Shown here piece by piece: positions 3,893 through 30,407 of a stretch of 32,547 nucleotides of DNA. The stretch is from assembly GCA_019114565.1 (NCBI GenBank), contig DXFI01000288.1:1-32547 (forward strand). The letters are read 5' to 3'. The first letter of the stretch is position 1. Each line of letters starts with the position of its first letter. The position numbers and the translations under genes were made by a program. The DNA is from Candidatus Desulfovibrio intestinigallinarum (GTDB taxonomy: Bacteria > Desulfobacterota > Desulfovibrionia > Desulfovibrionales > Desulfovibrionaceae). Below the pieces are notes generated by a model. It was not told the origin of the DNA. It ran no database searches and worked only from the letters and a program-made list of their open reading frames with translations.

Positions 3893-4096
3893 TTTCACGC
3901 CGACAACAGTAAAACCGGCTTCAACAATGGCCGCCTTCATGGCCTCCACGTCGGCATTGTCATGCGTCACGACAGCGTTCTTGTTTTCAAGGCTCACGGA
4001 TACGTCGCTGACGCCGCTGACGGCCCGCAGGGCCTTTTCGGCGGAGGCGGTGCAATGGCCGCAATTCATGCCGTTGATGTCAATGATGGTCTGCAT
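3890..4096 (-). CDS. possible separate CopZ copper chaperone from an internal start within copA
   Basis: The last 68 codons of copA begin with an ATG at 4096 preceded by AGGAG (4108-4104) at an ideal seven-base spacing. The encoded peptide starts MQTIIDINGMNCGHC and has the length and fold pattern of a stand-alone CopZ/Atx1-like chaperone. Two readings are possible. A former copZ may have fused in frame with copA by loss of a stop codon, or both the long protein and the free chaperone may be made from one mRNA. Separate translation is an inference from the ribosome-binding site. Confidence 0.5.
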   Translation of the reverse strand: MQTIIDINGMNCGHCTASAEKALRAVSGVSDVSVSLENKNAVVTHDNADVEAMKAAIVEAGFTVVGVK

Positions 4097-9269: not shown

Positions 9270-9354
9270 ACGTCGGACCTTTGCCTGAATCGGGACGCTG
9301 CCGCCTTGCCTGCGGCAACCGCCCCGCCGCGAACGTAAAAGCGCAACAAAACAC

Positions 9355-9400
9355 GAGGGGCTGCCGCCTTCAAAAAGAAGGCGGCAGCCCCTCTGTCTTT
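9355..9400 (+). terminator. intrinsic terminator of the chemoreceptor gene
   Basis: A perfect 17-bp stem (9355-9371 with 9377-9393) encloses an AAAAA loop and is followed by TGTCTTT. The T-tract runs straight into the left end of repeat copy C. Confidence 0.92.
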
Positions 9401-9546
9401 AGAGCAATTTCAGTTTGAAATGCTTCGCATTTCAAACCATACGGCCTGTCGTTTCGCGGAAAAAGCGCTGTTTTTCCGCTTACTTTGGGCCGGGCGGTGC
9501 TGTGCCGCCGCCTCGCGTTTCTCCTTTTTCAAAAGTGAAACCTTCA
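9400..9546 (+). repeat. MITE-like intergenic repeat, copy C
   Basis: This copy has an intact left end (TAGAGCAATTTCAG) and an intact first palindrome (TTTGAAATGC-TTC-GCATTTCAAA). It keeps GCGGAAAAA/TTTTTCCGC and a GC-rich third palindrome (GGCGGTGCTGTGCCGCC). The right end is decayed (GAAACCTTCAGA in place of GAAACGCTCTA). It fills most of the 338-base gap between the chemoreceptor and peroxidase genes, between their two terminators. Confidence 0.9.
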
Positions 9547-9582
9547 GACAAAAGAGGGCCCGGCAGTATTGCCGGGCCCTCT
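9545..9582 (-). terminator. intrinsic terminator of the peroxidase gene
   Basis: AGAGGGCCCGGC at 9553-9564 pairs perfectly with GCCGGGCCCTCT at 9571-9582. On the minus strand it is followed by TTTGTCTG. It lies 26 bases beyond the stop codon of the minus-strand peroxidase gene. Confidence 0.8.
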
Positions 9583-9607
9583 CGTCATTCAGGAAAATTC
9601 ACTGTGA

Positions 9608-10972
9608 CTAACGCGCCACAGCCGTTCCCTGCACAGGCTTGCCTTCATGCTCGCCCGTCAGCGTACGCAGGAACGCCACAATCAGGGCGCGGTCGCTTTC
9701 AGGCACATCAAGACCGGAGCAGTAGGTACCCATGATGCGCACGGCGTCATCCAGGGTGGTGACGGTGCCGTCATGCAGATAGGGGTGCGTCAGCTCCACG
9801 TTGCGCAGGTTCGGCACCTTGAAGCGGTGCATGTCGTCGGCCTGCTTGGTGGCATTGAAGCGGCCCTTGTCGGAACCCAGCGCTTCGCCGCCGCGATCCG
9901 CAAAGTAGTCCTTCTTCAGGTCCATGTATTCGTAGGACTGGCCGCCCACGCTCTTGCCCACATGGCAGGAAGAGCAGCGATACGCCTTGAAGCGTTCGTA
10001 GCCCTTGACTTCTTCGCTGCTCAGGGCCGTCTTGTCGCCGCGCAGCCACTTGTCAAAGCGGCTGTTGGGAGAAAGAAGGGTCTTTTCGTATTCGGCAATG
10101 GCATCCGTGATGTTCTTGCCGGACCAGCCGTCAGGGTACACGGCCTTGAACTGGGCCGTCAGCGCTTCGTCCTGAGCCAGACGGGCGACGATTTCATCCC
10201 AGTCCTTGCTGCCCATTTCGATGGGATTCAGCGGCGGACCACCGGCCTGTTCCTGAAGGTCGGCCGCACGGCCGTCCCAGAACTGGACAAAGTTGAACGC
10301 GGCATTGAAGACCGTCGGCGCGTTCACATCGCCGAACTGCTTGCGGATGCCTTCGGAGAAACGGGAGTTGTCCGTGCCGCCCTTGTCCAGCGCATGGCAG
10401 CCGGAGCAGGCGAGGCTGCTGTCGGCGGACAGGCGCTTGTCGTTGAACAGGGTCTTGCCAAGATCCACCTTCGCCTTGTTGACCGCCAGCTTGCGCGGCA
10501 GGGGCTGCAGGGGTTCGTTGGCGTGAGCGGGCGCGGCGTCCGTCGCATAGTGCGCCTTGCGGGTGGTCGCCACCCAGTCAAGAATCTGCTTCTTTTCCTT
10601 GTCGGAAAGACGGCTGCCCCAGTGCACCACGGCGAACTTGGCAGGCGGCATGGTGTCATTGTTGATGACCCATTCCATCTTGGCCAGCACGGTTTCGCCC
10701 ACGGGCTTGTCCTTGCTCTGCACCAGTTCCTGATTGAGGTTCATGGCGCGCAGACCGTCATTGTAATCCTTTTCAATGATGCTGCGGATACCGGGAACCT
10801 TGGCGTAGAAAGGCAAATCATACCCCTTGGTATGACAGGCCATGCACTTTTCCTGCACGATGCCGGAAACGCTGGCGAATTTGCTCTTCACATCGCCCAG
10901 GTCCTGCGCCATGACCGGAGCGCAGGCCAGAAGAAAGCCCACACCCGTTACTGCCGCAAAAACCTTCCTCAT
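9608..10972 (-). CDS. tri-haem periplasmic cytochrome c (quinol) peroxidase, Ccp/YhjA-like
   Basis: This 454-residue exported c-type cytochrome should reduce hydrogen peroxide with electrons from the respiratory chain. A signal peptide runs to about residue 22 (ending PVMA). Three haem sites are visible: CMACH (43-47) in an extra N-terminal haem domain with a downstream NDTMPP, then CSGCH (189-193) and CSSCH (333-337) of the classical di-haem peroxidase fold. The length and three-haem plan match E. coli YhjA/Ccp, a membrane-associated quinol peroxidase. Here the N-terminus looks cleavable. The ATG at 10972 is preferred over an upstream in-frame ATG at 11008 because GAGGAGG precedes it and the signal peptide starts there. 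A PerR/Fur-like palindrome lies upstream. Related MauG-like proteins remain an alternative. Confidence 0.9.
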   Translation of the reverse strand: MRKVFAAVTGVGFLLACAPVMAQDLGDVKSKFASVSGIVQEKCMACHTKGYDLPFYAKVPGIRSIIEKDYNDGLRAMNLNQELVQSKDKPVGETVLAKMEWVINNDTMPPAKFAVVHWGSRLSDKEKKQILDWVATTRKAHYATDAAPAHANEPLQPLPRKLAVNKAKVDLGKTLFNDKRLSADSSLACSGCHALDKGGTDNSRFSEGIRKQFGDVNAPTVFNAAFNFVQFWDGRAADLQEQAGGPPLNPIEMGSKDWDEIVARLAQDEALTAQFKAVYPDGWSGKNITDAIAEYEKTLLSPNSRFDKWLRGDKTALSSEEVKGYERFKAYRCSSCHVGKSVGGQSYEYMDLKKDYFADRGGEALGSDKGRFNATKQADDMHRFKVPNLRNVELTHPYLHDGTVTTLDDAVRIMGTYCSGLDVPESDRALIVAFLRTLTGEHEGKPVQGTAVAR

Positions 10973-11180
10973 ATAGTCCTCCTCGTCGGATGGATACAAC
11001 GCCCCCACAATGGAGACGATTGGTGGCCGGATACCGGAAAGAAACCGGGAAAGCGCCCGCGCAAGGCGCGTGCGAATTCCGCTGCGGCGGGAACCGTCGA
11101 TGCTGCCCCGGCATAAAGAGAATTTCCTGCGCGAACGGCTAAAAAGCTATGGCGAAATTTTTTTCACAAAGACTGCTATT

Positions 11181-11204
11181 TGTCAATAATAATAATTATT
11201 ATTA
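11181..11204 (-). promoter_or_regulatory. PerR/Fur-like operator abutting a -35 box upstream of the peroxidase gene
   Basis: An 18-bp perfect palindrome, TAATAATAATTATTATTA (11187-11204), directly touches a consensus TTGACA read on the minus strand (11186-11181). Its AT-rich trinucleotide symmetry is typical of Fur-superfamily operators. Position upstream of a peroxidase favours PerR. The -10 element is not clear. The distance to the ATG (about 210 bases) leaves a long 5' leader in which nothing else was recognised. Confidence 0.65.
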
Positions 11205-11552
11205 GGTAATTTATTTGCCGCAGGCTCTCAGTCCGTCTTTTCTGCGGACAGCAAAAAGTAAGCGTTTTACCTAGATACATGAAACAGACTGAAATTACTA
11301 GCTATATTTTTCTAGAAAAAAAATACATTTTCTATATTCTTTCGAACGGTTCCTTTTGGAACAAGTCCCGTTTCCGGCCGCGGTGAAACGCGCGGCCGCC
11401 CGGGACTTTCCGATGCGCCCGCGCATCTCCTCCGCTCCGGCATTTTTCCGTGCCTGCAGCCCGTCGGCTGTACGGCACAAAGATTTCCCCTTTCGGGGAA
11501 TCGGAGTCCCCTCCGACAACAAAAAGGGGTTCTCGGAACCAAAGGAGGTGTT
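11205..11552 (+). promoter_or_regulatory. AT-rich region and hairpin-rich leader before a short ORF
   Basis: This 348-base stretch has no convincing gene. The first part is AT-rich and holds CTAG...CTAG around 11300. The second part contains a chain of small hairpins: GTTCC-TTTT-GGAAC (11349-11362), TTCCCC-TTTC-GGGGAA (11485-11500), TCGGAG-TCCC-CTCCGA (11501-11516) and GGTTC-TCG-GAACC (11528-11540). The last one abuts AAAGGAGG (11541-11548), the ribosome-binding site for the ORF at 11553. It could be a structured regulatory leader. Confidence 0.35.
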
Positions 11553-11735
11553 ATGAGCGCATACGGTACGCCCGGCACGCCGGCGACCGGCTATGGCAGC
11601 ATCCTGACACGGCAGGAGATCGCCTTCATCCTCGGCATGTACGCCAAGGATGCGGAAGATCGCGAAAGAAAGCAGAGCCTTTCTTCACCCTGCTCGTCCG
11701 CACCCAAGGATGCCCGAGGACGCAAGCCGGAATAG
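11553..11735 (+). CDS. short hypothetical protein with strong ribosome-binding site
   Basis: This 60-codon ORF starts MSAYGTPGTPATGYGS, followed by a helical-looking ILTRQEIAFILGMYAKDAEDRER and a polar tail. It was not recognised as a known family. Support for translation is AAAGGAGG four bases upstream of the ATG, a hairpin-rich leader and an intrinsic terminator on the same strand at 12024-12070. The tail after about residue 42 looks low in information, so the gene may be a frameshifted remnant of a longer protein or a true micro-protein. Just after the stop is a 9-bp hairpin (GACAATCGC/GCGATTGTC). Confidence 0.45.
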   Translation: MSAYGTPGTPATGYGSILTRQEIAFILGMYAKDAEDRERKQSLSSPCSSAPKDARGRKPE

Positions 11736-12023
11736 ACAATCGCGCCGTGCGATTGTCCCGACGAGCGCGGGAGCAGATGCCGCGACGACGCAGGACATAC
11801 CCGACGACGCCCCGCAGGGGATACGCGACGGCCTGTTCCTGCCTGCCGCGCGGTGACGTCGGTCGCTCAGGATGGTTCATACCGGGAGCTTTAACGGAAA
11901 TTCGCAGGCGTTTCCCGACGCGTGTGATTCCCCTTTCCGCAAAAGCATCCCCTGTTTTTGCCGTCCGGCACCGGGCATAACTGCGGCAGCGGGCTTCTCC
12001 CGCCCGCTGTCGCCCAAAACAGC
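11736..12023 (+). other. transcribed gap without a clear gene
   Basis: The region lies between the short ORF at 11553-11735 and the plus-strand terminator at 12024. Open frames cross it in all three frames, but none has a ribosome-binding site or a recognisable product. It may be a long 3' untranslated region or decayed coding sequence. Confidence 0.3.
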
Positions 12024-12070
12024 GCCGGGAGCGAAAGATTCCCCCTCTTTCGCTCCCGGCTCATTTTTTC
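12024..12070 (+). terminator. intrinsic terminator of the 11553 transcript
   Basis: A perfect 15-bp stem, GCCGGGAGCGAAAGA at 12024-12038 with TCTTTCGCTCCCGGC at 12046-12060, is followed by TCATTTTTT. Because no recognised plus-strand gene lies just upstream, it is the best evidence that something between 11340 and 12023 is transcribed. Confidence 0.9.
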
Positions 12071-12072
12071 TC

Positions 12073-12143
12073 CAGAGCATTTCAACTTTGAAAAAGGTGA
12101 AACGCGAGGCTGCGACACAGCGCCGCCTCGCCAAAATGCTCCA
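12073..12143 (-). repeat. MITE-like repeat, copy D (internally deleted)
   Basis: This 71-bp derivative keeps the right end (CAGAGCATTTCAACTTTG, then GGTGAAACGCGAGGC) and the GC-rich third palindrome. It then jumps to the other terminus (AAAATGCTCC). The first two palindromes are missing. Orientation is opposite to copy A. Both ends are retained, as expected of an internal deletion and not of truncation. It lies between the terminator at 12024 and the recN stop codon. Confidence 0.8.
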
Positions 12144-12181
12144 TCAGGCGACGGGACCCGTTTTTTGCGGAGTCCTCGCCC

Positions 12182-13744
12182 CTACGCTTCCCTGCCTTCC
12201 ATGCGGGCAAGCTCGGCGCTGCGCCCCTCCGCATCCAGGGGCGCGCAGAGCGTATAGGTCTGGCCCTGACGCACCACCTTGCAGACATGGAAATGCTTCT
12301 GCCCGCGGGCGGCCAGCTGCGGCCAGTGCGTAATCAGCAGGGTCTGCCGCGTGCGGGAAAAGTCATCCAGCTTGGCGGCCAGCTTGTTCAGCGTCAGACC
12401 GCCCACGCCCGCGTCCACTTCGTCAAAGATGCAGGTAGCGCTTTCCGCATGCGGCTGCACGGCAATCAGCGCCAGCAGAAAGCGGGACAGTTCGCCGCCG
12501 GACGCAATTCGATCCAGCGGATGCGGCGGCTGCCCGGGATTGGGAGCCCAGAGCAGACGCACCTTTTCATCAGCCACGCCGGGCCACAGTTCCTGCGGCA
12601 GAAATTCGGGAATGACGCGCACCTCTTCGGAAAAGCCCAGGCCGCGCAGTTCCTGCTCCAGCCGCCCGGTAAACTGCAGGGCCGCCTCCCGGCGCTGCGG
12701 CAGAATACGTTCCACAACCCCTTTCAATTCCTCCACCAGCGCGGCAATGCGCCGATTGGCAGCGGAAATATCCAGCGCGCAGGCATCCAGAAAGGACAGG
12801 TTCTCGGCAATTTCCTCGCGCATGGCCAGAATCTCCGGCATGCTGCGATGCAGTTTGCGCTTGAGCTGGGCCAGCTCGTACAGGCGTTCTTCCAGCGCAT
12901 CCACATCAATATCGTCATCCTGCACCGGGGGCCGCCGCAGCCGGGACCGCAACTGAGACAGCCGCTGCCGCGTCTCGGCCACGGCGTCGGCCTCTTCCGT
13001 AAAGTCCTCTTCCACAGCGCCTATGCGCCGCAGCAGCGACTCAAACTGCCCCAGCGCATCCAGCAGGCCCATGTCCTCGGAACCATAGAGGAATGCCTGC
13101 GCCTTTTCGTACAGATCCCGCAGACCGGCCGTTTCCCGCAGGCGCGCCCGCTGCTCTTCCAGCCGCTCTTCCTCCCCTTCTTCCGGGGCCACGCGATCAA
13201 TTTCCTGCTGGCGCATCTCCAGCAAATCCCGCTTGTCGGCCAGTTCCGCCCGCTTTTCCTTGAGTTCTTCCAGGGCATCGGCTTCCGCGCGCAGGCGGCG
13301 CATCAGTTCGTCCCGCGCTTCCAGCAGGTCCCGGCAGGGAACCACGCTTTCCATAAAACGCGCCTGAAAGGCCGGTTGCAGCAACTGCTGCTGCCCGTGC
13401 TGGCTGGTATGGATGAGCAGTTGCGTCCGCAGTTCGCGTACGGCCTCCTGCGAGCGCAGGCTGTCGTTGACATAAAGGCGGCTGCGCCCGCTTTCGGCCA
13501 GCAGTTCACGCCGGATGACAAGCTCCTCGCCGTCAAGCGTAAAAAGCGCCTCCACCCGCGCCTTGTCGGCGCCGCTGCGCACCATGTCCGCGGACAATCT
13601 GTCGCCAAGCACAAAGCCGAGCGCCTTGAGGATGAAACTTTTGCCCGCGCCGGTTTCGCCGGTCAGCACATTCATGCCGGGCGCAAATTCCAGCTCCATG
13701 TCCTCAATAAGCGCAAGATTGCGGATATGCAGATATTCAAGCAT
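12182..13744 (-). CDS. recN: DNA repair protein RecN (SMC-like ATPase)
   Basis: This 520-residue SMC-family ATPase acts early in recombinational repair of double-strand breaks. The N-terminal Walker A is GETGAGKS (29-36). A coiled-coil region fills about 150-360. The C-terminal half has the signature SGGELSRFLLAL (about 415-426) and Walker B CIFDEVDAGVGG (about 438-449). It starts MLEYLHIRNLALIED, matching the normal RecN N-terminus, so the ATG at 13744 is used. An alternative GTG at 13753 overlaps the permease stop as GTGA. The ribosome-binding site is weak, which suggests translational coupling to the upstream permease gene. It is the last gene of the minus-strand operon. No LexA box was identified. 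It is slightly shorter than E. coli RecN (about 550 residues). Confidence 0.95.
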   Translation of the reverse strand: MLEYLHIRNLALIEDMELEFAPGMNVLTGETGAGKSFILKALGFVLGDRLSADMVRSGADKARVEALFTLDGEELVIRRELLAESGRSRLYVNDSLRSQEAVRELRTQLLIHTSQHGQQQLLQPAFQARFMESVVPCRDLLEARDELMRRLRAEADALEELKEKRAELADKRDLLEMRQQEIDRVAPEEGEEERLEEQRARLRETAGLRDLYEKAQAFLYGSEDMGLLDALGQFESLLRRIGAVEEDFTEEADAVAETRQRLSQLRSRLRRPPVQDDDIDVDALEERLYELAQLKRKLHRSMPEILAMREEIAENLSFLDACALDISAANRRIAALVEELKGVVERILPQRREAALQFTGRLEQELRGLGFSEEVRVIPEFLPQELWPGVADEKVRLLWAPNPGQPPHPLDRIASGGELSRFLLALIAVQPHAESATCIFDEVDAGVGGLTLNKLAAKLDDFSRTRQTLLITHWPQLAARGQKHFHVCKVVRQGQTYTLCAPLDAEGRSAELARMEGREA

Positions 13745-13749
13745 GCCAG

Positions 13750-14583
13750 TCACCGTCTCAGACGCGGATCAGCCATATCGCGCAGGCTTTCGCCCAGCAG
13801 GTTATACCCAAGCACCGTCAGCAGAATGGCCATGCCGGGATACACGGAAAGCCACGGCGCAATCTCCAGCGCGCTCTTGCCCTCCAGCAGCATGTTTCCC
13901 CAGCTGGCGTCGGGCGGCTGAACGCCAAGCCCGAGAAAGCTCAGGCTCGATTCCACCAGAATGGCCCCGGCCACGCCCAGCGTGGCGGAAATGAGCACCG
14001 GCGCAAGGGCGTTGCTCAGAATGTGACGCCAGAGGATATACGGCGTGGAACAGCCCGCCAGACGCGCGGCATCCACAAATTCCCGTTCCCGCAGGCTCAG
14101 GGTTTCCGCGCGCACCAGCCGCGCCACCCCCATCCAGGACGTCAGGCCAATGACAATCATGATATTGGTCAGACTGGGCTCCAGAAAGGCAATGACGGAA
14201 AGGATGAGGAAAAAGGAGGGGAAGCACAGCATCACGTCCACCACGCGCATGATGAGCTCATCCACCCAGCCGCGAAAATAGCCGCTTACCAGCCCCAGCA
14301 CCACGCCTATCAGGGTGGAGATGCCCACGGCAACAAAGCCGACCCAGAGGGAAACGCGCCCGCCATAGAGCAGACGGGAAAAAATATCCCGCCCCAGCCG
14401 GTCCGTCCCCAGCCAGAACTCGGACGAGGGAGGCGCAAAGATGGCATTATGCGGCATATTGGGATCGTAGGGCGCAAGCAGCGGCGCGGCCATGGCGGCC
14501 AGCGACATAATCAGCACAAGGCCCAGACCGAGCGCCAGCATGGAGTGCCGTCCCAGAAAACGGCGCAGACAACGCGGCATCAT
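13750..14583 (-). CDS. ABC transporter permease, peptide/nickel type (DppC/OppC family)
   Basis: This 277-residue inner-membrane permease belongs to the oligopeptide/dipeptide/nickel importer family. It has an N-terminal membrane segment followed by the family motif GTDRLGRDIFSRLLYG, five more hydrophobic helices, and an EAA-type loop that contacts the ATPase (EREFVDAARLAGCSTPYILWRH). It ends SLRDMADPRLRR, typical of DppC. The ATG at 14583 has GGAGG nine bases upstream and starts two bases after the dppB-like stop. It should pair with the adjacent DppB-like protein. Neither the binding protein nor the ATPases are in this window, so the substrate is open. Confidence 0.93.
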   Translation of the reverse strand: MMPRCLRRFLGRHSMLALGLGLVLIMSLAAMAAPLLAPYDPNMPHNAIFAPPSSEFWLGTDRLGRDIFSRLLYGGRVSLWVGFVAVGISTLIGVVLGLVSGYFRGWVDELIMRVVDVMLCFPSFFLILSVIAFLEPSLTNIMIVIGLTSWMGVARLVRAETLSLREREFVDAARLAGCSTPYILWRHILSNALAPVLISATLGVAGAILVESSLSFLGLGVQPPDASWGNMLLEGKSALEIAPWLSVYPGMAILLTVLGYNLLGESLRDMADPRLRR

Positions 14584-14584
14584 G

Positions 14585-15625
14585 TCAGCGTTCCTCCCCC
14601 GCGGCCCGGATGCGCGGATCGGCAAGACCATAGCACACGTCGGCCAGAATATTGCCCGCCAGCGTCAGCACGGCCCCGATCACCAGATTCCCCATAATCA
14701 TGGTATAGTCCCGCGCCATGACGGCGGCATAAAAAAGCTGTCCCAGTCCGGGCAGGGCAAAGATGGATTCAAGAATCACACTGCCGCCGATCAGGCCCGG
14801 CACGGACAGGCCCAGCAGAGTAATGACGGGCAAAAGAGCATTGCGCAGGGCGTGACGCCAGATGACAACCGCCGAAGACAGGCCCTTGGCACGGGCCGTC
14901 AGGATGTAGTCCTGCCGCAGAACTTCCAGCATGCAGGCGCGCATATAACGCGACATGCCCGCCAGACTGCCCACGGTGTATACCAGAATGGGCAGCGCCA
15001 GATGTGACGCCAGATCCGCCGCCTTGCCCCAGAAATCGCGCTGCGCAAAATCCAGCGAGGTCAGCCCTGAAAGCGGCAGCCATTGCAGCTCAATGCCGAA
15101 AAAGAGCATCAGCAGCAGCGCCAGCCAGAAGGACGGCATGGCAAAGCCCAGAAAGACCAGTATCGTCACCGTCTTGTCCAGCAGGGAGTTGCGGCGGCAG
15201 GCCGAAAGAACGCCTATGGGTATGGCGATCAGCAGCGTCAGCATCAGGGACACCAGATTCATGCCCACCGTCAGAGGCAGACGCTCCAGAATCTTGTCCA
15301 GCACGGGGCGGCTGTCCGCCGACATGGATCGGCCAAAGTCCAGCTGCACAATGCGCGTCAGCCAGTCCCAGTATTGCACATACAGGGGCTTGTCGAGGCC
15401 GTACAGGCTTTCAAGCTGTTTTCGTGCGGCTTCGCCCGCCAGCGGATTGAGCGTCGTTTCCATATCCGTGGGCGAACCCGGCGCAAGATGGATGACGCCA
15501 AAGCTGATGACGGTAATACCCAGCAGCACAAGGACGGTCCAGAGAACCTTGCGGCCGATACGCCGCAAGCGCGCTTCCCAGGAGCCGCCGCGCACAGCGG
15601 ACAAAAACAGGCTGTCCTGCGACAT
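14585..15625 (-). CDS. ABC transporter permease, peptide/nickel type (DppB/OppB family)
   Basis: This 346-residue permease is the DppB-type partner of the downstream DppC-like protein. After an N-terminal helix ([20 protein letters not shown]) come APGSPTD, the [15 protein letters not shown] block with LDFGRSMS, and the conserved EAA loop [17 protein letters not shown]. It ends [16 protein letters not shown], the usual family end. The ATG at 15625 has GGAG about seven bases upstream and begins two bases after the stop of the rdgC-like C-terminal ORF. Transcription and translation are therefore probably coupled to a DNA-recombination gene, which is an odd partnership for a transporter. Confidence 0.93.
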
Positions 15626-15627
15626 GG

Positions 15628-16155
15628 CTACTCCGTCCGGGTCATCCACTGCCGCATGGCGGCCACTTCCTCTTCCCAGGCCGGCGACAGGCGCAACCCG
15701 AGAAAGCGGGCATACAGGCTGTCCAGCAGGCCGACGCAGGTTTCCATCAGATAGAATTTTTCCAGAAGCAGCGCATCAGGATCAGCATCGTCGTCGCCCT
15801 TGTCCAGCTTGGGCGTTTTAAGGCTGCCCATGCTGAAATCCTCGGCCTTGAGAGTCAGCTGAAAGGCCAGTTCCTCCTTTTCCAGCCGGATGAGCGCCCG
15901 CGTTACCTTCTTGCCCGTGCCCAGTCCGAAACGGGCCTCGCGCAGCGGCGACAGGGAACCGGAAACCGAGGCGGTTTCCCGGGCATCGCCCTCGCCGCCC
16001 TGCACCACGATGCGCTGTTCCATGGAAACGCTGAAGGGCTGCCCCTGCGCATCCACAAAGGCCCCGGGCGCAACGTCGCTCTGATACCAGAGCCACGTCA
16101 AAAACTCCTGTCCAAGAATATTGTCCAACGAATCCAGCGAGGAAGTCTGACTCAT
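15628..16155 (-). CDS. RdgC C-terminal-like protein (split RdgC, second half)
   Basis: This 175-residue protein starts [27 protein letters not shown]. It has a middle part rich in charged residues, including [27 protein letters not shown], and a C-terminal helix [21 protein letters not shown]. The pattern is reminiscent of the second half of RdgC, where a late helix reads FILMTGELAALIQNLIEG in E. coli. It follows an RdgC N-terminal-like ORF with a 152-base gap containing repeat fragment E. Together they may form a two-subunit RdgC, or they may be a gene split in evolution. The start at 16155 has only a weak AAGGAT site. An in-frame upstream TTG at 16170 is less likely. The family link is tentative. 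Confidence 0.55.
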
Positions 16156-16925: not shown

Positions 16926-17102
16926 ACTTTTTCCTGTTGTCGCGCAGAAGGCCCCAGCCCTGCGGAAAAACATCCCGGTAAAAAACAGGCTGTCCGACCG
17001 GCAGCCGAAACACGCGCGCAGTGTACGCGAGAGCATGCGCCTCTGGCAAGGCGTCTCCCCCGTCCTGCCGCACGGCCCGCTTCGTCTCAGGCTCAGAACT
17101 CA

Positions 17103-17251
17103 TAGAGCGTTTCAACTTTGAAAAAAGATGAAACGCGAGGCGGCGGCACAGCGCCGCCCGGCCCGAAGTGAGCGGAAAAACCGCGTTTTTTCCGCGAAAC
17201 GACAGGCCGTATGGTTTGAAATGCGAAGCATTTCAAACTGAAAATGCTCTA
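17103..17251 (-). repeat. MITE-like intergenic repeat, copy F (full length, reverse)
   Basis: This 149-bp copy is the cleanest in the window. The ends are TAGAGCGTTTCAACTTTG and CAAACTGAAAATGCTCTA, with TA at both ends. All four palindromes are intact: GCGTTTCA/TGAAACGC, GGCGGCG/CGCCGCC-like, GCGGAAAAA/TTTTTTCCGC and TTTGAAATGC/GCATTTCAAA. It lies upstream of the rdgC-like gene and fills much of the 441-base gap 16926-17366, so it may carry or displace that promoter. Confidence 0.93.
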
Positions 17252-17289
17252 AAGAATAATTCCGAGTTACCGCGCCCCAGCCCAGTGAA

Positions 17290-17337
17290 GCGATAAAAAC
17301 AAAACGCGGGCGATGGCCCTTGCACACCATCGCCCGC
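17290..17337 (-). terminator. intrinsic terminator of the PEP-synthase-like / two-component operon
   Basis: GCGGGCGATGG at 17306-17316 pairs with CCATCGCCCGC at 17327-17337. On the minus strand it is followed by GTTTTGTTTTTATC. It is 29 bases beyond the last gene of the operon. Confidence 0.88.
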
Positions 17338-17366
17338 AGCAAAAAGCCAGAAACAGGCCGGAATCC

Positions 17367-19994
17367 TCACTTTGCCTTCAGGCCTGCAATATCCTGTTCA
17401 AACTTGGTGCGATAAGCCGCCACGCGGGCCTCCTCAAGCATAATCATGTCGATTTGCCGCGTATGTATGAGCAGATAGCCGAGAATACGCACGCGCAGCA
17501 ACGTCTCCTCCTTGTCGTAGCCTTCGGCCACGGCAAAAAGGGCATCCTTGCGTACATCGACCCGAAAACCTTCCGCCTCCAGCAGTTCGGCAATCAGCCG
17601 GGCGCGCCGCTCCCGGCGCTGGGCATCGGCCGCGCCGCCCTTGAACTGGAAGCTGACGAAGTTCTCGTGCCGATTATCTCCGGCAAGACACTCGACCGTG
17701 CAGAAATGATACCCGTAACGGGCCTGAAGAATCATGTATTTCGAGGAAATAATAAAGAAATTCTTCTCGGCCATGACGGCGGGCGCGGTACTTTCCAAAT
17801 CCTTGTTCATGGCGCTTTCAAAGACGACGCTCATGAAGCCCGCCGCCCCGGAGGACGGCGGCCCGGCCCAGGGAACGGCGGTCATCCCGGCCCAGAGCGC
17901 CTGCATGGGCTCGCAGGCAATATCGCGCAAATCCACGACCGGCCCGGTAACAGGCCGGGAAAAACCGTCGTCCATATCGACGACCCAGTACTGGAGCTTG
18001 ACGCCCGCCTTGAGCTGCTTGCCCGCGCGCTGATCCACATCGGCGTTTTCACCGAACATGAGCTCCACGGCCTTTTCATGACAAAAGCGCGTAATATCAT
18101 GAAAACTGCGGCAGGAAGCCGGAGCGAACTCCGGCGATTCCGGGTCCAGCAGATGCAGCGGCGTCATATACTCGGCCATGCTGCGCAGCGTCTCCTGCAC
18201 GGGACTGCCCTGCATCAGATTGCGCGGCTTCTCGTGACCGGCGAGCAGCTCGGGATACTCGCCGCGCAGAACCACAGCCCTGTCCGCATCCAGCGTCGCC
18301 ATGCCGCCATCGGCCAGCAGAGAGCAGGCGTCAGGCAGACTGAACAATGCGGGCAGGCCATATTCCCGCGCAACCGACGCCAGATGTCCGGCCATGCCGC
18401 CTGTTTCGCTGATCATGGCGGCGGCCTGCGGCAACAGCGGAGCCCAGCGCGGATGCGCCCGCTCCACGACCAGAATCCCCCCCCTGGGGAACGAAAGCAT
18501 GTCCGCATCCTTGCGCGCCACAAACAGAGGCCCGGCGGCAGCGCCGCCGCTGACGGTCATGCCGCCCTGCGCCAGGATGGCCGACGCAGGAATGGAATCC
18601 GGCAGGGGTTCGGCTCTCCCCGCCTCCGCCGTATCCCCGGACTCGGACAGAGGACGGCTCTGCAGCACCACAAGGCAGGAAGCGCCGTCGCGCATTTCCA
18701 GCGCCCACTCCACATCCTGCGGCTCATTGTAAAACTCTTCCAGCGCCAGAGCCAGACGGGCCAGATGCAGCGCCTGCCCGTCATTGATGCAGGCGCGCGC
18801 GCCCTCCTCCGGGCTCAGAGGCGTACGCCGCACGCCCTGCGCGCAGCCCGGCGCGCAATCCAGCCGAAACGGCTTGACGGCAATCTGCCGTTCCAGCAGT
18901 TCCGGCGGGTTGGTGCGGCTGAAGGTAAAGACATCCGGCGTCATGCCGCCGTCCACGACCGCCTGCGGCAAGCCCGGAACGGCGTTGAGCGTCACCTGCT
19001 CCCGGCCCTGCCGCGCAGCCACGGGGTCCCGGCTGTAGGCCACGCCGCCCGCCTCGGCCCGCACCATGCTCAGCACGCCCACGCACATGGGCGCGGCCTC
19101 GTCGGGGATACCGCGCTGAAAACGGTAGCTCATGGCCGTCACGGAATACTTGCTGGCGATGATTTCCTTCCAGACGTCGCAGGCTTCTTCCGGCAGCACG
19201 TCCAGTTCGGAACGATACTGCCCGGCAAAAGTCACCCCCAGCCCGTCCTCGCCCACGGCGCTGCTGCGCAGAGCAAGGCGCAGATCCGGCCCCAGGCGGC
19301 GCTGCATATCGGCAACGGCCTCTTCCAGAGCCGACTCCAGCTCCGGCGGCAGCGAAGCGCCCTGCACCAGCTGCTGCAGCGAGGCCGACAGGCTGAATAC
19401 CGCGTCCAGACTTTCCAGATCGGTACTCTGAATGCGTTGATTGATGGCATCGCGCAACCCGTTGTGCAGCATGAAACGCTCATAGGCCGCCACGGTCACG
19501 GCAAAGCCTTCGGGCACATCCATGCCCACATTGGCGGCCACTTCGCCAAGATTGGCCATTTTGCCGCCCACCAGCGGCATATGCTGGAGGCGAATGTCCG
19601 CCAGCGGCAGGATAAGAGGCACATCCTCCTCGTGCTCGCGCCGGGGAAGACAGGCCTCCATGGACGCATGCACGCGCCTGAAAGCGTCGTTCAGTTCGGG
19701 ATAGGCATTGCCGGAAAGGGCGTTCAGCTCACGCACCATCTGATAGACGGACGCGCCCACGCGCGTTCCAAGCGCCCGCACGGCATCCATGCCGAAAGGA
19801 TGCCCCCCGGAGAGCAGGGCTTCCGCTTCGCTCATGCCCTCCAGCGCCGCCTTGTTGGCGGAAAGCAGCCGACGGAAACGCGCGCACCGCTCCCGCAGAC
19901 GAGCCTTGAGCTCCTCCTCGCGGGCCAGCGCCTCGGGGTCCGGCTGCGCCGGGCCGCGCCTCAGCAGATTGCGTAAACTGTCGAGTACGCCCAT
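17367..19994 (-). CDS. PEP-synthase-like protein: PEP/pyruvate-binding and phosphohistidine domains with a novel C-terminus
   Basis: This 875-residue cytoplasmic protein is related to PEP synthase/PPDK only in its first two-thirds. A helical N-terminal region (1-115) precedes the ATP-grasp nucleotide-binding domain: GGKMANLGE (143-151), RSSAVGEDG (243-251), and the end motifs QDVEWALE (about 426) and VLQSRP (443-448). The swivelling phosphohistidine domain follows with TGGMAGHLAS, catalytic His 537. After about 600 there is no PEP/pyruvate TIM barrel. A different region of about 275 residues follows (CRSFHDITRFCHEKAVELMFG ... LLIHTRQIDMIM) that is shared with the paralogue at 22182-24824. It may phosphorylate itself from ATP or bind a nucleotide without making PEP. 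The start lies four bases after the response-regulator gene. Confidence 0.85.
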   Translation of the reverse strand: MGVLDSLRNLLRRGPAQPDPEALAREEELKARLRERCARFRRLLSANKAALEGMSEAEALLSGGHPFGMDAVRALGTRVGASVYQMVRELNALSGNAYPELNDAFRRVHASMEACLPRREHEEDVPLILPLADIRLQHMPLVGGKMANLGEVAANVGMDVPEGFAVTVAAYERFMLHNGLRDAINQRIQSTDLESLDAVFSLSASLQQLVQGASLPPELESALEEAVADMQRRLGPDLRLALRSSAVGEDGLGVTFAGQYRSELDVLPEEACDVWKEIIASKYSVTAMSYRFQRGIPDEAAPMCVGVLSMVRAEAGGVAYSRDPVAARQGREQVTLNAVPGLPQAVVDGGMTPDVFTFSRTNPPELLERQIAVKPFRLDCAPGCAQGVRRTPLSPEEGARACINDGQALHLARLALALEEFYNEPQDVEWALEMRDGASCLVVLQSRPLSESGDTAEAGRAEPLPDSIPASAILAQGGMTVSGGAAAGPLFVARKDADMLSFPRGGILVVERAHPRWAPLLPQAAAMISETGGMAGHLASVAREYGLPALFSLPDACSLLADGGMATLDADRAVVLRGEYPELLAGHEKPRNLMQGSPVQETLRSMAEYMTPLHLLDPESPEFAPASCRSFHDITRFCHEKAVELMFGENADVDQRAGKQLKAGVKLQYWVVDMDDGFSRPVTGPVVDLRDIACEPMQALWAGMTAVPWAGPPSSGAAGFMSVVFESAMNKDLESTAPAVMAEKNFFIISSKYMILQARYGYHFCTVECLAGDNRHENFVSFQFKGGAADAQRRERRARLIAELLEAEGFRVDVRKDALFAVAEGYDKEETLLRVRILGYLLIHTRQIDMIMLEEARVAAYRTKFEQDIAGLKAK

Positions 19995-19998
19995 AATC

Positions 19999-20376
19999 CT
20001 AGCCGGCGGCGCGCGCCGCCTCCTCCATTTTCAGGATGAGCTCATTGATGGCCACAGGCTTGAGCATGTAGTCAAAGGCCCCGAGATCCATGCCTTCCAC
20101 GGCAACCCCCAGCGAGGCATGCCCGGTCAGCAGCACCACCGGCAGCGTCGCCGCCACGGCCTTCATGCGCCGCAGGGCTTCCAGCCCGTCCATGCCGGGC
20201 ATGCGCACGTCCATGACCACCACATCGGGAAGCGTGCCCGCCGCAGCTGCCTCCTCCACGGCCCTGACGCCTTCCAGCCCGTCGTGCGCCGTGGACACTT
20301 CAATACCGCGCCGGGAAAGGCGTTTTTCCATCAGCTCCAGAAATTCCCGCTCATCATCCACGAAAAGGGCCCGCAT
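19999..20376 (-). CDS. receiver-only response regulator
   Basis: This 125-residue CheY-like protein consists of a single receiver domain: acidic pair D7-D8 (FVDDE), phosphorylation site D56 in VVVMDVRMPG, T84 (LLTGHAS) and K106 (MLKPV). It has no DNA-binding or enzyme output domain. Output must therefore go through a partner protein, and the flanking genes suggest one of the PEP-synthase-like proteins. GGAG lies about six bases upstream of the ATG. It is 63 bases downstream of the histidine kinase gene and directly upstream of the catalytic-type PEP-synthase-like gene. Confidence 0.93.
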   Translation of the reverse strand: MRALFVDDEREFLELMEKRLSRRGIEVSTAHDGLEGVRAVEEAAAAGTLPDVVVMDVRMPGMDGLEALRRMKAVAATLPVVLLTGHASLGVAVEGMDLGAFDYMLKPVAINELILKMEEAARAAG

Positions 20377-20439: not shown

Positions 20440-22185
20440 TTATGCTTCCTCGTCCTCCGGTTCGGCGGTTGCCGCGGCCTCCGGCGGTTCCGGCGGCAAG
20501 TCGATGCGGAATGTCGTGCCCTGTCCGGGCGTGCTTTCCACCTCGATGCGCCCGCCGAGCTTTTCCAGAATGGAAAAGCAGATGGCCAGACCGAGCCCCG
20601 TCCCTTCACCCACAGCCTTGGTGGTAAAGAAGGGATCGAAAATGCGCTTCATATTTTCCGGGGAAATGCCCGGGCCGGTATCCGTGATGGACAGGCGGGC
20701 CCCCTTGCCGTGCGCCTCGCTGCGCAGAGTGATGGTGCCGTCCTTGCCCACGGCGTCAATGGCATTGTCGATAATGTTGATGAAAACCTGCTGCAGCTGC
20801 GCCGGATCGGACAGAATCACCGGCACGTCCGCCCCCAGCTCGCGCACCAGCTCGATATGCCGTCCCCGGGCTTCCGTCGCCAGAAAGTCCGCGGCCTGAT
20901 CCAACAGCTGATTGGGCATGATCTCCGTGCGGCCGGGGTTCATGCGCCGCCCGAAGCCCAGCATGCGCTGCGTAATGCCCTTGGCGCGCTGCACATGCTG
21001 TTCGATCTTGCCGGTGCTCTCCAGCAGTTCCTTGTAATTCTGCATCTTCGCGGCATCTTCCTCTTCCAGAAGATCGCGCATCCAGCCCGCGTTTTCCTGA
21101 ATCAGCATCAGGGGATTGTTGATCTCGTGGGCCACACCGGCGGCCATCTTGCCCAGAGCCGCCATCTTGCTGGACTGAAGCATGCGGGCGTCAATATGCG
21201 CCTGCTTGCGGTCGGAGGCGGCCAGCGAAGACACCAGCCGCCGCGTGGCGACCAGCGCCCCGAAACCGGTAATCACCAGCCCCAGCAGCACCAGCAGCGC
21301 CACCGAGAGCCGCAGCTGCCGCAGCGGCTGAAGGCTGTCGGTCATGTCGTCCACCACGACCAGAATCCAGGGCATGGTCTCAAGGCGCATCATGGCCACG
21401 GCAGCCCTGGCACTGGATGACGTCGTAGGCTGGAGCGACGACGGCGTCGCCAGCTTTTCCACCACAATGCCGCCTTTGCGCAGCTGCTCCATCTTCAGCG
21501 GCAGGGCAAAATGCCCCATGCTGGAACCGTAATGCCGCGACGGCGTCTGAAGGATACCATCCTCGTTGACCAGAAAAGCGTCGCTGCTGCCTGCGGAATA
21601 AAGGCGCTGCAACAGCGCGCCGATGGCTTCCATGTCGATGGTGGCACGCAGGATGAAGCTGCGCGAGCCCTCGTGACGCAGCACGGCAATAATGAAGTGC
21701 GGCACGTTGCGATAGCCCATGAACACATCGCTGACATAGACTCCCCGCCGCAGCACGGCCTGGAACCATTCCGCCGAGGTATAGTCGGCGGTGCGCAGAT
21801 CAAAGGGGCCCACGTAGGCAACATGTTTGCCGTCCATGCCGATGATGCCCACATCCGCAAAAGAACGGCTGTGCGCCTGCATGACGGAAAAGATGGAACT
21901 CAACCGCTCGGGATCGCTCAATTCCTCATAGGAATGCGTGAACGCCAGCGTCCGAATCTGGGAAACACGCTCCGTCAGAAAGGTGTCCAGCGCCCGGTGC
22001 TTGCTGTTGGTGACGGACTCCAGACCAATGGCAAGCTTTTCATCGTACAGCGCGCCCAGGCGATCATAGCAGAACAGCCCCAGCGCCAGCAGCGGCGTCA
22101 TGGCCAGCAGCAGCAGAAGAAACAACAGGCGACGCCGTATTCCCGCATACCCGCGCTTGGCCACATAGCTCTTGGGTTCGCTCAT
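20440..22185 (-). CDS. dCache-containing membrane histidine kinase
   Basis: This 581-residue sensor kinase has TM1 at about 19-39, a periplasmic dCache-like sensor at about 45-285 (IGMDGKHVAYVGPFDLRTADY, with VYVSDVFMGYRNVPHF) and TM2 at about 291-313. The dimerisation helix carries H353 in AAGVAHEINNPL. The ATPase domain has the N-box IIDNAID, G1 DTGPGIS (about 502), F-box FDPFFTTK and G2 GTGLGLA, and a short acidic tail. There is no fused receiver. Its ATG overlaps the stop of the upstream gene as ATGA, which indicates translational coupling. It probably phosphorylates the receiver-only protein encoded next. The ligand is unknown. Confidence 0.95.
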   Translation of the reverse strand: MSEPKSYVAKRGYAGIRRRLLFLLLLLAMTPLLALGLFCYDRLGALYDEKLAIGLESVTNSKHRALDTFLTERVSQIRTLAFTHSYEELSDPERLSSIFSVMQAHSRSFADVGIIGMDGKHVAYVGPFDLRTADYTSAEWFQAVLRRGVYVSDVFMGYRNVPHFIIAVLRHEGSRSFILRATIDMEAIGALLQRLYSAGSSDAFLVNEDGILQTPSRHYGSSMGHFALPLKMEQLRKGGIVVEKLATPSSLQPTTSSSARAAVAMMRLETMPWILVVVDDMTDSLQPLRQLRLSVALLVLLGLVITGFGALVATRRLVSSLAASDRKQAHIDARMLQSSKMAALGKMAAGVAHEINNPLMLIQENAGWMRDLLEEEDAAKMQNYKELLESTGKIEQHVQRAKGITQRMLGFGRRMNPGRTEIMPNQLLDQAADFLATEARGRHIELVRELGADVPVILSDPAQLQQVFINIIDNAIDAVGKDGTITLRSEAHGKGARLSITDTGPGISPENMKRIFDPFFTTKAVGEGTGLGLAICFSILEKLGGRIEVESTPGQGTTFRIDLPPEPPEAAATAEPEDEEA

Positions 22186-24824
22186 GACGCGGACTCCTTC
22201 TTCGTCTCCCCGTTTTCAGTATCTCCGGCGGCGGGCGCAAAGGACACGGCACAGGCGGGCGCTTCAAGCCCCTCCGGCAGTCCCCTGCCCGTATAGAGGG
22301 CGCGGCAGTCCGCGAGAATGGAAGCCCGGGTCGCCTCCACCTTGGCAGGCTCCTGCATGATCATGTCCAGCTGCCGGGTATGGATGGTCAGATACCCGGC
22401 CACGGCCAGCAGGCAGCGGCCCTCCTCCATGTCCATGCCGTCCACGCGGGCCACCAGCGCATCGTTGCGCACAACAGGCGAAAGACCGAATTCCCAGAGA
22501 ATATCGGCCACAAAACGCACGCGCAGAATACGGCGCTCGATATTGGCAGCGCCGCCGCGCAACTGAAAGACAAGATAATTTTCGCTGCGCCGCTCGCCCA
22601 GACGGGCCTCCACGGAAACAAAATGGAAGCCGAAGCGGGAATGCAGACTGCAATAGTCGCGGGACACAAGAAAGTAGTTCTTTTCGGAAAAATAACTTGT
22701 CTGTGTCGCCGGATCGAGATTGGGATTGGCCGTGGCCTCAAACAGAACCGAAAGAAAGCCCTTGCCGTCCACCGGCGGCGGCCCCTGCCACGGATAGGCG
22801 TTCATGCCGTACCAGACAAAGAGCATGGGCAGGGACGCTATCTCCTCAATGTCGATATAGGGCTCGTTCCGCTGCACACGGAAGCCGTCGTTCAGATTGA
22901 CGACCCAGAACTGCTTGAGCACCTTGTCGCGCAGCTGTTTGACCCGCACGGCCGCATGCTTTTTGTCCGAGCCGAGCGAGAACATCGCGCTCACGGCCTT
23001 CTCGTGGCAGTAACGGGCAATATCGTGATAGGTCTGGCAGTTGGCGGCCCGGAATTCGATGCTGTCCACATCGTGCGTCAGAGGCAGAATATGCTCCGCA
23101 GCCTTTTGCAGACTGTGCATGACGGGACTCCCCGGCATATAGTCATGCGGCGGCGGCGCCTTGTCGAGCAGGCATTCCACCTGACCGGGGAAGACCACCC
23201 CGCCATCCGCGCACAGCGTCACCATGTCGCCGGTATGAAGCATGCGGCTGGCCTTGCCGACGTTGATGATCATGGGCCGCCCGAATTCGCGGGCCAGCGA
23301 GGCCAGACGGGACCCCATAAGCCCTTCTTCCGCCACAATGCCCGCTGCCACGTCAATGAGCGAAACCCAGCGGTAAATGTCGCGCCGCACCACAAGGATG
23401 TCCCCCTTGCGGATATGGCGGGCATCTTCCCACGAATCGGCCACCAGCACACGGCCGTAGACGCAGCCCCGGCTTGCGGTTTCGCCGCCGCTCAGCAGCG
23501 GCGCGGGGAGCTGATCGCGCTCCTCATGCAGCACGTCATGCAGAGGCGACGCAGGCACATAAATAATGTCGCGCAGCTGCAACAAATAGAAATCGCCTTT
23601 CGGCGTGCGCAGCCAGGTAAAGGCCTGCGGTTTTTCCAGCAGCCGTTCCAGCTTCACGGACAGATCCGCCAGCTGACGCAACGCGTTGTCATCCAGAACA
23701 GGGTGCGCGGGATCGTAGAGACGCCGGGACGTGATCTCGTGCGGTTCGGCGCGGGAGACGTGCACGGAATCCACGGGCAGCAGAGAATATTCCATATCCT
23801 GCGGCAGCCCCGGACAGGCATAAATATGCAGATTGCCGCTGACGGCCAGCGGGTTCGCGGAATGAGCGATACCGCCCACGCCGCCTTCCTCCACCGCCAT
23901 GCAGGCCACGCAGACGCCCGCGCCGCTGTCGGTCAGACCGCGCGCGCGGCGGTAAATGAGAGACTGGGCCTGCTGTTTGCGCGCCAGCGTCGTATGGAAG
24001 GCGGCCAGCACTTCATCGTCCGAGGCGTGCAGGCTCACGGGCGGCCCCCAGATGAGCAGACCGGGATCGCCTTCGCCGCCGACTTCCGGTCCAGGCCAGA
24101 GACGCCCGCGCAGCAAAAGCTGCATGCCCTCCTGCGGACACTGGGCGCGCAGTTGACGCACACCCTCCAGGAAGGCTCCGGCCACGTCTTCCGGCAAGGG
24201 CATGCTTTCCACCAGTTCGCGCAGACTTTCCGAAAGTTCGGCCAGATGCTCCGTGGCGTAGCCGCCCGAAGCCTGCACTCTCCGGCTGAATTCTTCCTGT
24301 AGTTCCTTGCGCTTGAAGACGCGCATACAGCCGGGGGCCGTCATGACGAAGCCCGGGGGCACATGAGCGGCCAGCGTTCTGCCCAGCTGGCCAAGGCGGA
24401 TGGTGCTCGGGTCCGCCAGATGCGGCATGGCCTCAAGATCGGGATGGCCCAGCGGCAGCATCAGCGGGCCGGGCTGCGCTTCTTCGTCTTCGTAGACCTC
24501 GGCGGCGACGATGGCCTGCAATTCGCCAAAGCGTTTGTACAGTTCGGGCGTCGATGCGGGACTCAGCTTTTCCAGCTGCTGTATGCACTGAAAAACCTGC
24601 GTCGCCACGCGGGTACAGAGCGCGCGCACACGGTAGGAGCCGAAGGGATGATCACAGCACAGCGTGTATTCAAGCTCGGTCATGGTTTCCTGAAACTTAT
24701 TCCATGCCGTAAGAAAGAGCTTGAAACGATGGTGCAGCAGCGCAAAGTCCTGCTCGGAGGAACCGACAGCGCGTTTCGGCGTCTCCGAACGGGAAAACAA
24801 TTGTTTCAGGCGGGAAAAAAGCAT
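22182..24824 (-). CDS. PEP-synthase-like protein with degenerate catalytic motifs (probable pseudoenzyme)
   Basis: This 880-residue protein is a full-length paralogue of the product of 17367-19994. It has the same order: helical N-terminus, ATP-grasp-like region, swivelling domain, then the shared C-terminal region (NCQTYHDIARYCHEKAVSAMF ... LTIHTRQLDMIMQEP). The catalytic features have decayed. GGKMANLGE is replaced by STIRLGQLG, RSSAVGEDG has no equivalent, and the phosphohistidine TGGMAGH reads EGLMGSR (about 500-506), so His is replaced by Arg. It is probably a binding or regulatory partner and not an enzyme. ATG 24824 is preferred because GGAGG lies directly upstream; an in-frame start at 24887 would add a hydrophobic stretch. 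It is the first gene of a four-gene unit. Confidence 0.8.
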   Translation of the reverse strand: MLFSRLKQLFSRSETPKRAVGSSEQDFALLHHRFKLFLTAWNKFQETMTELEYTLCCDHPFGSYRVRALCTRVATQVFQCIQQLEKLSPASTPELYKRFGELQAIVAAEVYEDEEAQPGPLMLPLGHPDLEAMPHLADPSTIRLGQLGRTLAAHVPPGFVMTAPGCMRVFKRKELQEEFSRRVQASGGYATEHLAELSESLRELVESMPLPEDVAGAFLEGVRQLRAQCPQEGMQLLLRGRLWPGPEVGGEGDPGLLIWGPPVSLHASDDEVLAAFHTTLARKQQAQSLIYRRARGLTDSGAGVCVACMAVEEGGVGGIAHSANPLAVSGNLHIYACPGLPQDMEYSLLPVDSVHVSRAEPHEITSRRLYDPAHPVLDDNALRQLADLSVKLERLLEKPQAFTWLRTPKGDFYLLQLRDIIYVPASPLHDVLHEERDQLPAPLLSGGETASRGCVYGRVLVADSWEDARHIRKGDILVVRRDIYRWVSLIDVAAGIVAEEGLMGSRLASLAREFGRPMIINVGKASRMLHTGDMVTLCADGGVVFPGQVECLLDKAPPPHDYMPGSPVMHSLQKAAEHILPLTHDVDSIEFRAANCQTYHDIARYCHEKAVSAMFSLGSDKKHAAVRVKQLRDKVLKQFWVVNLNDGFRVQRNEPYIDIEEIASLPMLFVWYGMNAYPWQGPPPVDGKGFLSVLFEATANPNLDPATQTSYFSEKNYFLVSRDYCSLHSRFGFHFVSVEARLGERRSENYLVFQLRGGAANIERRILRVRFVADILWEFGLSPVVRNDALVARVDGMDMEEGRCLLAVAGYLTIHTRQLDMIMQEPAKVEATRASILADCRALYTGRGLPEGLEAPACAVSFAPAAGDTENGETKKESAS

Positions 24825-24889
24825 GCTCCCTCCGCAAGAGTGGCCGTTTGCGCGCCGGAACAGCACGAAAAACCATCCGATGCGCATTC

Positions 24890-25037
24890 TAGAGCATTTT
24901 CAGTTTGAAACGCTGCGCGTTTCAAACCATACGGCCTGTCGTTTCGCGGAAAAAGCGCGGTTTTTCCGCTCACTTTTGGCCGGGCGGCGCTGTGCCGCCG
25001 CCTCGCGTTTTACCTTTGTCAAAGGCAAAACACTCTT
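24890..25037 (+). repeat. MITE-like intergenic repeat, copy G
   Basis: This nearly full-length copy of 148 bp has an intact left end TAGAGCATTTTCAG. The first palindrome reads TTTGAAACGC-TGC-GCGTTTCAAA; compared with copies C and F both arms changed together (ATGC/GCAT to ACGC/GCGT). The third palindrome GGCGGCGCTGTGCCGCC is intact. The right end is slightly decayed (AAAACACTCTTG). It sits in the 402-base gap upstream of the four-gene unit, between its start and the TRAP terminator. Confidence 0.92.
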
Positions 25038-25128: not shown

Positions 25129-25169
25129 AAAAAACGGAAAAGGGGAAAAAGGCCGAAACCTTTTTCCCC
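25129..25169 (-). terminator. intrinsic terminator of the TRAP operon
   Basis: GGGGAAAAAGG at 25142-25152 pairs with CCTTTTTCCCC at 25159-25169. On the minus strand it is followed by TTTTCCGTTTTTTTG. It is 58 bases beyond the permease stop codon. Confidence 0.85.
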
Positions 25170-25226
25170 CTGTTCGTCATGCGGCAGACAGCAGGACATC
25201 GTTACACCGGATCAGACCGGAACGCG

Positions 25227-30338: not shown

Positions 30339-30407
30339 GCGTTTTTTCTGTGAAATGACAGGCCGTATGGTTTGAAATGCGAAGCGTTTCAGACTGAAAA
30401 TGCTCCA
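30339..30407 (-). repeat. MITE-like repeat, fragment I (left half, reverse)
   Basis: This fragment retains the first palindrome (TTTGAAATGC-GAA-GCGTTTCAGA read on the plus strand), the GACAGGCCGTATGG linker, part of the second palindrome (GCGTTTTTTCTGTG) and the left end (CTGAAAATGCTCC). The right half is missing. It lies upstream of the S1C protease gene. The rest of the 454-base gap 30020-30473 beyond elements H and I shows nothing recognisable. Confidence 0.85.

Follow-up and report, generated by a model that had tools for sequence, protein, structure and literature searches.

The window analysed here is a 32,547 nt stretch of a Candidatus Desulfovibrio intestinigallinarum contig, in which four genes are packed on a single strand (minus) in the order B, histidine kinase (HK), response regulator (RR) and A. 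Protein A (17367..19994, minus strand; 875 aa) comprises an N-terminal region, an ATP-grasp domain, a phosphohistidine swivel domain and a C-terminal domain (CTD), and matches the Pfam families PPDK_N (1.3e-76) and PEP-utilizers (3.3e-16). Protein B (22182..24887, minus strand; 901 aa) has the same layout and is catalytically dead, the ATP lysine being replaced by Ser and the swivel His by Arg. B shares its last 4 bases with the gene for a membrane HK of dCache-HisKA-HATPase architecture (20440..22185, minus strand; 581 aa). Between A and HK lies a single-domain RR (19999..20376, minus strand; 125 aa) with a Pfam Response_reg match of 9.9e-28, an acidic pocket and the phospho-acceptor motif VVMDVRMPG; the gaps are 63 bp from HK to RR and 4 bp from RR to A. 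A plus-strand frame of 887 residues over A (17313-19976) is, in our judgement, no gene but an open frame that arises antisense to high-GC coding DNA.

Terminator-like hairpins, each identified by consensus match only, are located just after A (17305..17338, minus strand; 13 pairs, 9 of them G-C, with a T tail) and between a TRAP transporter gene and B (25140..25171, minus strand; 14 pairs, with a T tail). From its sequence, the B-HK-RR-A block looks like one operon. D. piger and other Desulfovibrio have the same gene order between unrelated flanks. Because the block is conserved among different flanks, the upstream TRAP-TAXI genes are probably incidental; we rejected this transporter as a conserved functional partner, given the variable flanks and the intervening hairpin.

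A dispersed repeat of ~150 bp, palindromic at its centre and bearing short inverted ends, occurs at 2834-2983, 3753-3893, 9396-9541, 17102-17252 and 24890-25036 of the window and in part at 12074-12127 and 30339-30405. Its copies are 84-93% identical; two of them flank the B-HK-RR-A block, one immediately before B and the other after A. Across the genome, the scoring recovered 40 or more near-full copies, and 728 candidates were flagged. By its features, the repeat looks like a MITE or REP-type element. Elsewhere in the window, two oppB/oppC-type ABC permease genes (13750-15649) adjoin a recN-like gene (12182-13753).

A conserved C-terminal domain in place of the PEP barrel

Pfam recognizes the ATP-grasp domain of A at residues 140-458 (PPDK_N; 18621..19577, minus strand), which was aligned with PEP synthase and rifampin phosphotransferase (RPH) chains, and the swivel domain at residues 502-572 (18279..18491, minus strand), with His537 (codon 18384-18386) as the predicted phospho-acceptor, and nothing beyond. 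The score of A was below the cut-offs of the NCBIfam PEP synthase equivalogs (281.5 bits against 598 for NF005057; 274.3 against 739.75 for TIGR01418). The NCBIfam RPH model covered only the ATP-grasp and swivel stretches (212 bits against a cut-off of 999), and a full-length RPH match with the middle RIF-binding domain was not obtained for A in NCBIfam. As in PEP synthase and PPDK (PF01326, PF00391 and a PEP barrel), the Lys and Arg of the ATP-grasp domain (K145 and R243) and the swivel His (H537) are present in A, the latter being replaced by Arg in B. In contrast to these enzymes, A and B lack the C-terminal PEP/pyruvate TIM barrel, the swivel being followed instead by a domain of ~280 residues, and they possess an extra region of ~125 residues before the ATP-grasp domain. 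Judged from sequence, A and B are thus diverged PEP-synthase-type dikinases with a ~280-residue CTD in place of the PEP barrel. A third dikinase paralogue in the source genome (C232:26503-29004; 35%) is located away from A and B. At the locus of this third paralogue (L123 on C232; 9567-14273 of L123), a TauE permease and a DUF4881 protein are divergent from a membrane-bound Cache-sigma-54 activator, which is followed by the dikinase.

The CTD of A spans residues ~593-875 (17370..18218, minus strand), and that of B lies at 22296..23138 (minus strand). The identity between A and B is 30% in the N-terminal region, 26% in the ATP-grasp domain, 39% in the swivel domain and about 43-44% in the CTD, so that the CTD is the most conserved part of the pair. 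This bears out the sequence-only reading, which had noticed strong conservation of the region in an otherwise diverged pair; the three motif pairs that it quoted, WVVDMDDGF / WVVNLNDGF among them, were all found in A and B. The CTD alone retrieved nothing from Pfam, NCBIfam or the PDB sequences. No Pfam family, PEP-utilizers_C included, matched any of 66 members scanned singly, and the profile built from these 66 sequences had no match among PDB sequences. The domain is conserved across these 66 aligned relatives, and some of its columns are invariant in all of them.

Two AlphaFold models of the CTD, made from different queries with overlapping but different alignments (pLDDT 84.0 and 85.5, pTM 0.71), agree in their secondary structure, which is mixed alpha+beta: the N-terminal half holds helices and a short sheet and is followed by a helix, four strands, a helix, two strands and a helix. 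Neither model matched a PDB fold at E<=0.001, and a search of a viral fold library returned nothing significant. The top PDB fold matches recurring in both models included DR1245 (YbjN-like), 2plg and type III chaperones, with SpcU in both lists and ExsC and SycN-YscB in the second. The YbjN/type-III-chaperone-like matches of the two models were below significance (E 0.03-0.09, TM ~0.4 on the target); the best of them, 4h5b, covered the C-terminal half of the CTD (E 0.036, probability 0.80, TM 0.38-0.40 on the target). Since TM is only ~0.4 on the target, we take the fold of YbjN (DR1245) and the type III secretion chaperones as a lead and not as an assignment. The resemblance is weak and concerns the C-terminal half in both models, and the CTD shares no sequence similarity with these proteins and is nearly twice as long. 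The absence of a TIM barrel, claimed from the sequence, is supported by hhalign, which gave a probability of 0.3% against the barrel of the genome's own PTS enzyme I, and with the models, which are not alternating (beta/alpha)8 structures. Likewise, the statement that the region had no assignable fold held in the searches by profile and by fold, and a degenerate PEP-utilising barrel, named in advance as the match that would speak against it, was tested and not found.

In A, the CTD carries HDxxRxxHE (H632...E640) in its N-terminal half and, further on, RxGxH (R759...H763), KGGAA, RRxxR and HTRQxD. Across the family, the site RxGxH ... N ... (K/R)GGAA ... RRxxR ... D ... RQxD is near-universal, dead and reduced copies included, with K in A types and R in B types at the (K/R)GGAA position. 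HDxxRxxHE is retained by nearly all kinase-intact copies and is eroded in several dead or reduced copies (loci L053, L054, L060, L078 and L122). Although these numbers are small, we may reasonably infer from the pattern that HDxxRxxHE meets the phosphohistidine and that the RxGxH-KGGAA-RRxxR site binds a shared ligand or partner.

Retention of the domain after loss of catalysis

Alignment with PEP synthase and rifampin phosphotransferase, whose residue roles are described in PMC4844700, identified all six catalytic residues in A (K145, R243, E429, Q445, R447 and H537; the KREQRH set). In B, an Arg aligns with R243, while Lys and the swivel His are replaced by Ser and Arg. The full set is present in 109 of 124 full-length relatives, and the remaining 15, which constitute the B type, have lost both the lysine and the phosphohistidine; beyond these 124, one A-type and one B-type copy at L135 and more distant members were considered. 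Between species, B proteins are 61-81% identical in the CTD, compared with 38-50% in the dead ATP-grasp domain and 43-54% in the dead swivel, and no such contrast is seen in A. In B, it is thus the CTD that is under selection.

Several B homologues are reduced further. The swivel is wholly lost in one genome (G040, L122), and in Desulfovibrio sp. OH1186 (L054) and a goat MAG (L060) both the ATP-grasp and swivel domains are gone, leaving proteins of 365-378 residues that consist of the N-terminus and the CTD and are still encoded directly upstream of RR and A. Maximum-likelihood analysis of 82 CTDs united the 13 kinase-dead or reduced copies in the sample in a single group with support of 90/96, 12 of them with 100/99. 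The grouping of these CTDs, together with the domain losses in L122, L054 and L060, indicates at the sequence level that one B lineage lost catalysis, kept the CTD and shed its catalytic domains at least twice. Because the dead B keeps the CTD best and its relatives shed the catalytic domains, we conclude from these comparisons that the CTD is a shared functional unit with a function of its own, for which the B lineage is the strongest evidence. The proposal that this region carries the common function of the pair is therefore upheld. We rejected the possibility that B is a pseudogene, since its frames are open in many species and its CTD is strongly conserved. An apparent fusion of 1833 residues in G040 (L117) was spurious, its first ~900 residues being an antisense frame over the HK/RR region.

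The N-terminal ~125 residues of A (19620-19994, minus strand) and their equivalents have no Pfam match and, like the CTD, persist in the reduced B proteins; this region may therefore be a second working part. At another locus (L138; G304:C4:266000-285000), three tandem CTD dikinases (7428-15872) adjoin a TauE permease; the middle one has lost several catalytic residues (ERRGRH), which perhaps represents an independent loss.

Of 297 genomes sampled from the phylum, 107 carried the CTD in profile searches (E<=1e-3), which answers the suggestion to look for other occurrences of the region; so did 6 of 189 genomes of another phylum, entered through a Myxococcota contig. This recurrence, like the invariant columns, shows that the conservation is not accidental. 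Several copies per genome are common. The carriers are almost always full dikinases; shorter matches lie mostly at contig ends, the clear exceptions being the reduced B proteins.

Linkage to TauE/SafE permeases and a proposed role in anion uptake

In other lineages, A-type genes follow HK, one or more RRs, a TauE/SafE permease and a membrane protein of ~230 residues. Among 58 loci with at least 4 kb of upstream sequence, a same-strand RR was found within 4 kb upstream in 47 and a TauE homologue in 38, against a background of about 10 TauE genes in the 2.9 Mb of the source genome. The CTD is carried by 69 of the 72 genomes that possess the membrane partner and by 38 of the 225 that lack it (297-genome sample; Fisher p about 1e-35, uncorrected for shared ancestry). 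In Desulfovibrio proper, the A/B operon does not adjoin a TauE gene, whereas in relatives the TauE and membrane-partner pair is often next door; in the source genome this pair is located on another contig (C262). The ~230-residue membrane protein encoded there (L142, 4014-4739) and its relatives have no convincing Pfam match and stand beside a TauE permease in the inspected loci.

In the literature searched, the only work found on this dikinase family concerns the 'nitrate cluster'. According to Korte et al. 2014 (PMC4001038), transposon insertions in this cluster (DVU0251-0245 / Dde_0597-0605) confer nitrate resistance in D. vulgaris and D. alaskensis, and its genes encode, in order, DUF169, a TauE permease, a hypothetical protein, PtxB, HK, RR (360 bp), a dikinase and a phosphatase. 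As reported there, D. vulgaris mutants in the permease, hypothetical protein, RR and dikinase genes grow equally with or without 100 mM nitrate, and the mutant in the downstream phosphatase is nitrate-inhibited; the authors suggested leaky thiosulfate uptake. Because the phosphatase mutant is still inhibited by nitrate, simple polarity is unlikely to explain the dikinase phenotype, and because the dikinase and RR mutants behave like the permease mutant, these data point to control of transport.

A locus in G305 (L136) encodes DUF169, TauE, a 221-aa membrane protein, HK, a 119-aa RR, a dikinase and a DSP phosphatase; a separate PtxB gene was not seen there. Its dikinase has the full catalytic set and carries the CTD (hhalign 100%, E 2.8e-41), as a member of a distant subfamily with ~35% identity in the CTD and an altered HTRQxD. 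On gene order, L136 matches the nitrate cluster, and we equated the two by synteny, with the reservation that DVU0246 is annotated as shorter (2235 bp). The nitrate cluster thus appears to share the TauE permease, membrane protein, HK, ~119-aa RR, dikinase and phosphatase with L136, whose dikinase carries the CTD, and to differ from A/B in belonging to a distant subfamily and in having no dead partner B. The C-terminal domain is not described in the passages of the paper considered here.

These observations suggest that members of the family are dikinases with a regulatory role in TauE-type anion uptake; the CTD would be a phospho-acceptor or effector module and B, catalytically dead, a partner. 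We assign this reading a probability of about 0.5. The domain anatomy, the catalytic residues kept in A and lost in B, the selection on the CTD and the genomic linkage are established from sequence, and the mechanism is proposed. The CTD would be a new third dikinase domain that replaces the PEP/pyruvate barrel and serves signalling, not central metabolism. Given its intact catalytic residues, on which this step is based, A probably phosphorylates its own swivel histidine from ATP. The swivel would then swing the phosphohistidine to the CTD and the phosphate would pass to an acceptor bound by, or part of, the CTD; pyruvate is a less likely acceptor than one of the linked system's proteins (the CTD, a receiver domain, the permease or its partner). 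B, incapable of the phosphotransfer chemistry, may act as a regulatory partner of A, or as a decoy, by providing another CTD. Together with HK and the single-domain RR, the two proteins would govern how small anions enter through a TauE/SafE-type permease with its ~230-residue membrane partner. VadK (Rv1127c) of mycobacteria sets a precedent for a regulatory dikinase that has no barrel: this phosphotransfer protein is related to PPDK, lacks the pyruvate domain, undergoes autophosphorylation on His and has other proteins under its regulation (PMC13400623). A, and not B, shares with VadK the missing barrel and the retained catalytic His. VadK simply lacks a third domain, whereas A and B have a specific conserved domain in its place, in addition to the dead paralogue and the HK/RR partners. 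The stronger proposal of a separate class of signal transduction, in which the dikinase phosphohistidine acts through the CTD on TauE/SafE activity together with HK/RR and the kinase-dead partners act via the CTD alone, is more tentative.

Alternatively, A could be a metabolic small-molecule dikinase like RPH or HpeHI, whose CTD binds a substrate, perhaps one imported by the TauE permease, for phosphorylation by the swivel His, with B as a substrate-binding or regulatory subunit. Characterized three-domain dikinases work in this way, and RPH and HpeHI, which also combine the ATP-grasp and swivel pair with another acceptor domain exchanged for the barrel, demonstrate that one substrate domain can be exchanged for another (PMC4844700, PMC12167813). 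The clustered invariant polar residues of the CTD (RxGxH, KGGAA and RRxxR) could likewise suit an anionic-ligand site. However, the acceptor domain of RPH lies between ATP-grasp and swivel, with the His near the C-terminus, whereas in A and B the new domain is C-terminal, unrelated in sequence to that of RPH and linked to two-component genes. The recurrent linkage to HKs and single-domain RRs and the conserved dead partner that retains the CTD without a kinase also argue against such an enzyme. In the nitrate cluster, moreover, the RR mutant is reported to share the behaviour of the dikinase and permease mutants, as would be expected from control of transport more than from substrate trapping. 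On these grounds (HK/RR linkage, dead partner and shared mutant phenotype) we prefer the regulatory reading and consider a small-molecule kinase rather unlikely.

A less probable explanation still is that the CTD merely pairs A with B as an oligomerisation or scaffold domain and takes no part in phosphotransfer. Its presence in both partners would fit, as would the weak lead to the YbjN/type-III-chaperone fold, a fold that serves in pairing and protein binding (PMC3575483, PMC5398634). Yet a dead partner is absent from the operons of most family members, which still keep the invariant polar residues, and pairing alone is unlikely to hold RxGxH, GGAA and RRxxR near-invariant across subfamilies down to ~35% identity. 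A decayed PEP-utilising TIM barrel, which the position after the swivel, as in PEP synthase and PPDK, might suggest, was rejected, as far as sequence can tell, on the Pfam (PEP-utilizers_C in 0 of 66 members), PDB-sequence and hhalign comparisons and disagrees with the predicted secondary structure, so that we regard it as highly improbable.

Under the preferred regulatory reading, the CTD probably does the work in an unstudied system that controls anion uptake in sulfate reducers. Annotation usually labels dikinases of this superfamily as PEP synthases, so in many genomes of sulfate reducers the CTD family has probably been misassigned to central metabolism. For determining the structure of the CTD, the reduced B proteins, free of the catalytic parts, are small constructs provided by nature. 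If the regulatory reading is true, the family would provide a molecular handle on how sulfate reducers control the uptake of sulfur oxyanions and of the inhibitor nitrate, which underlies the nitrate resistance seen in souring control.
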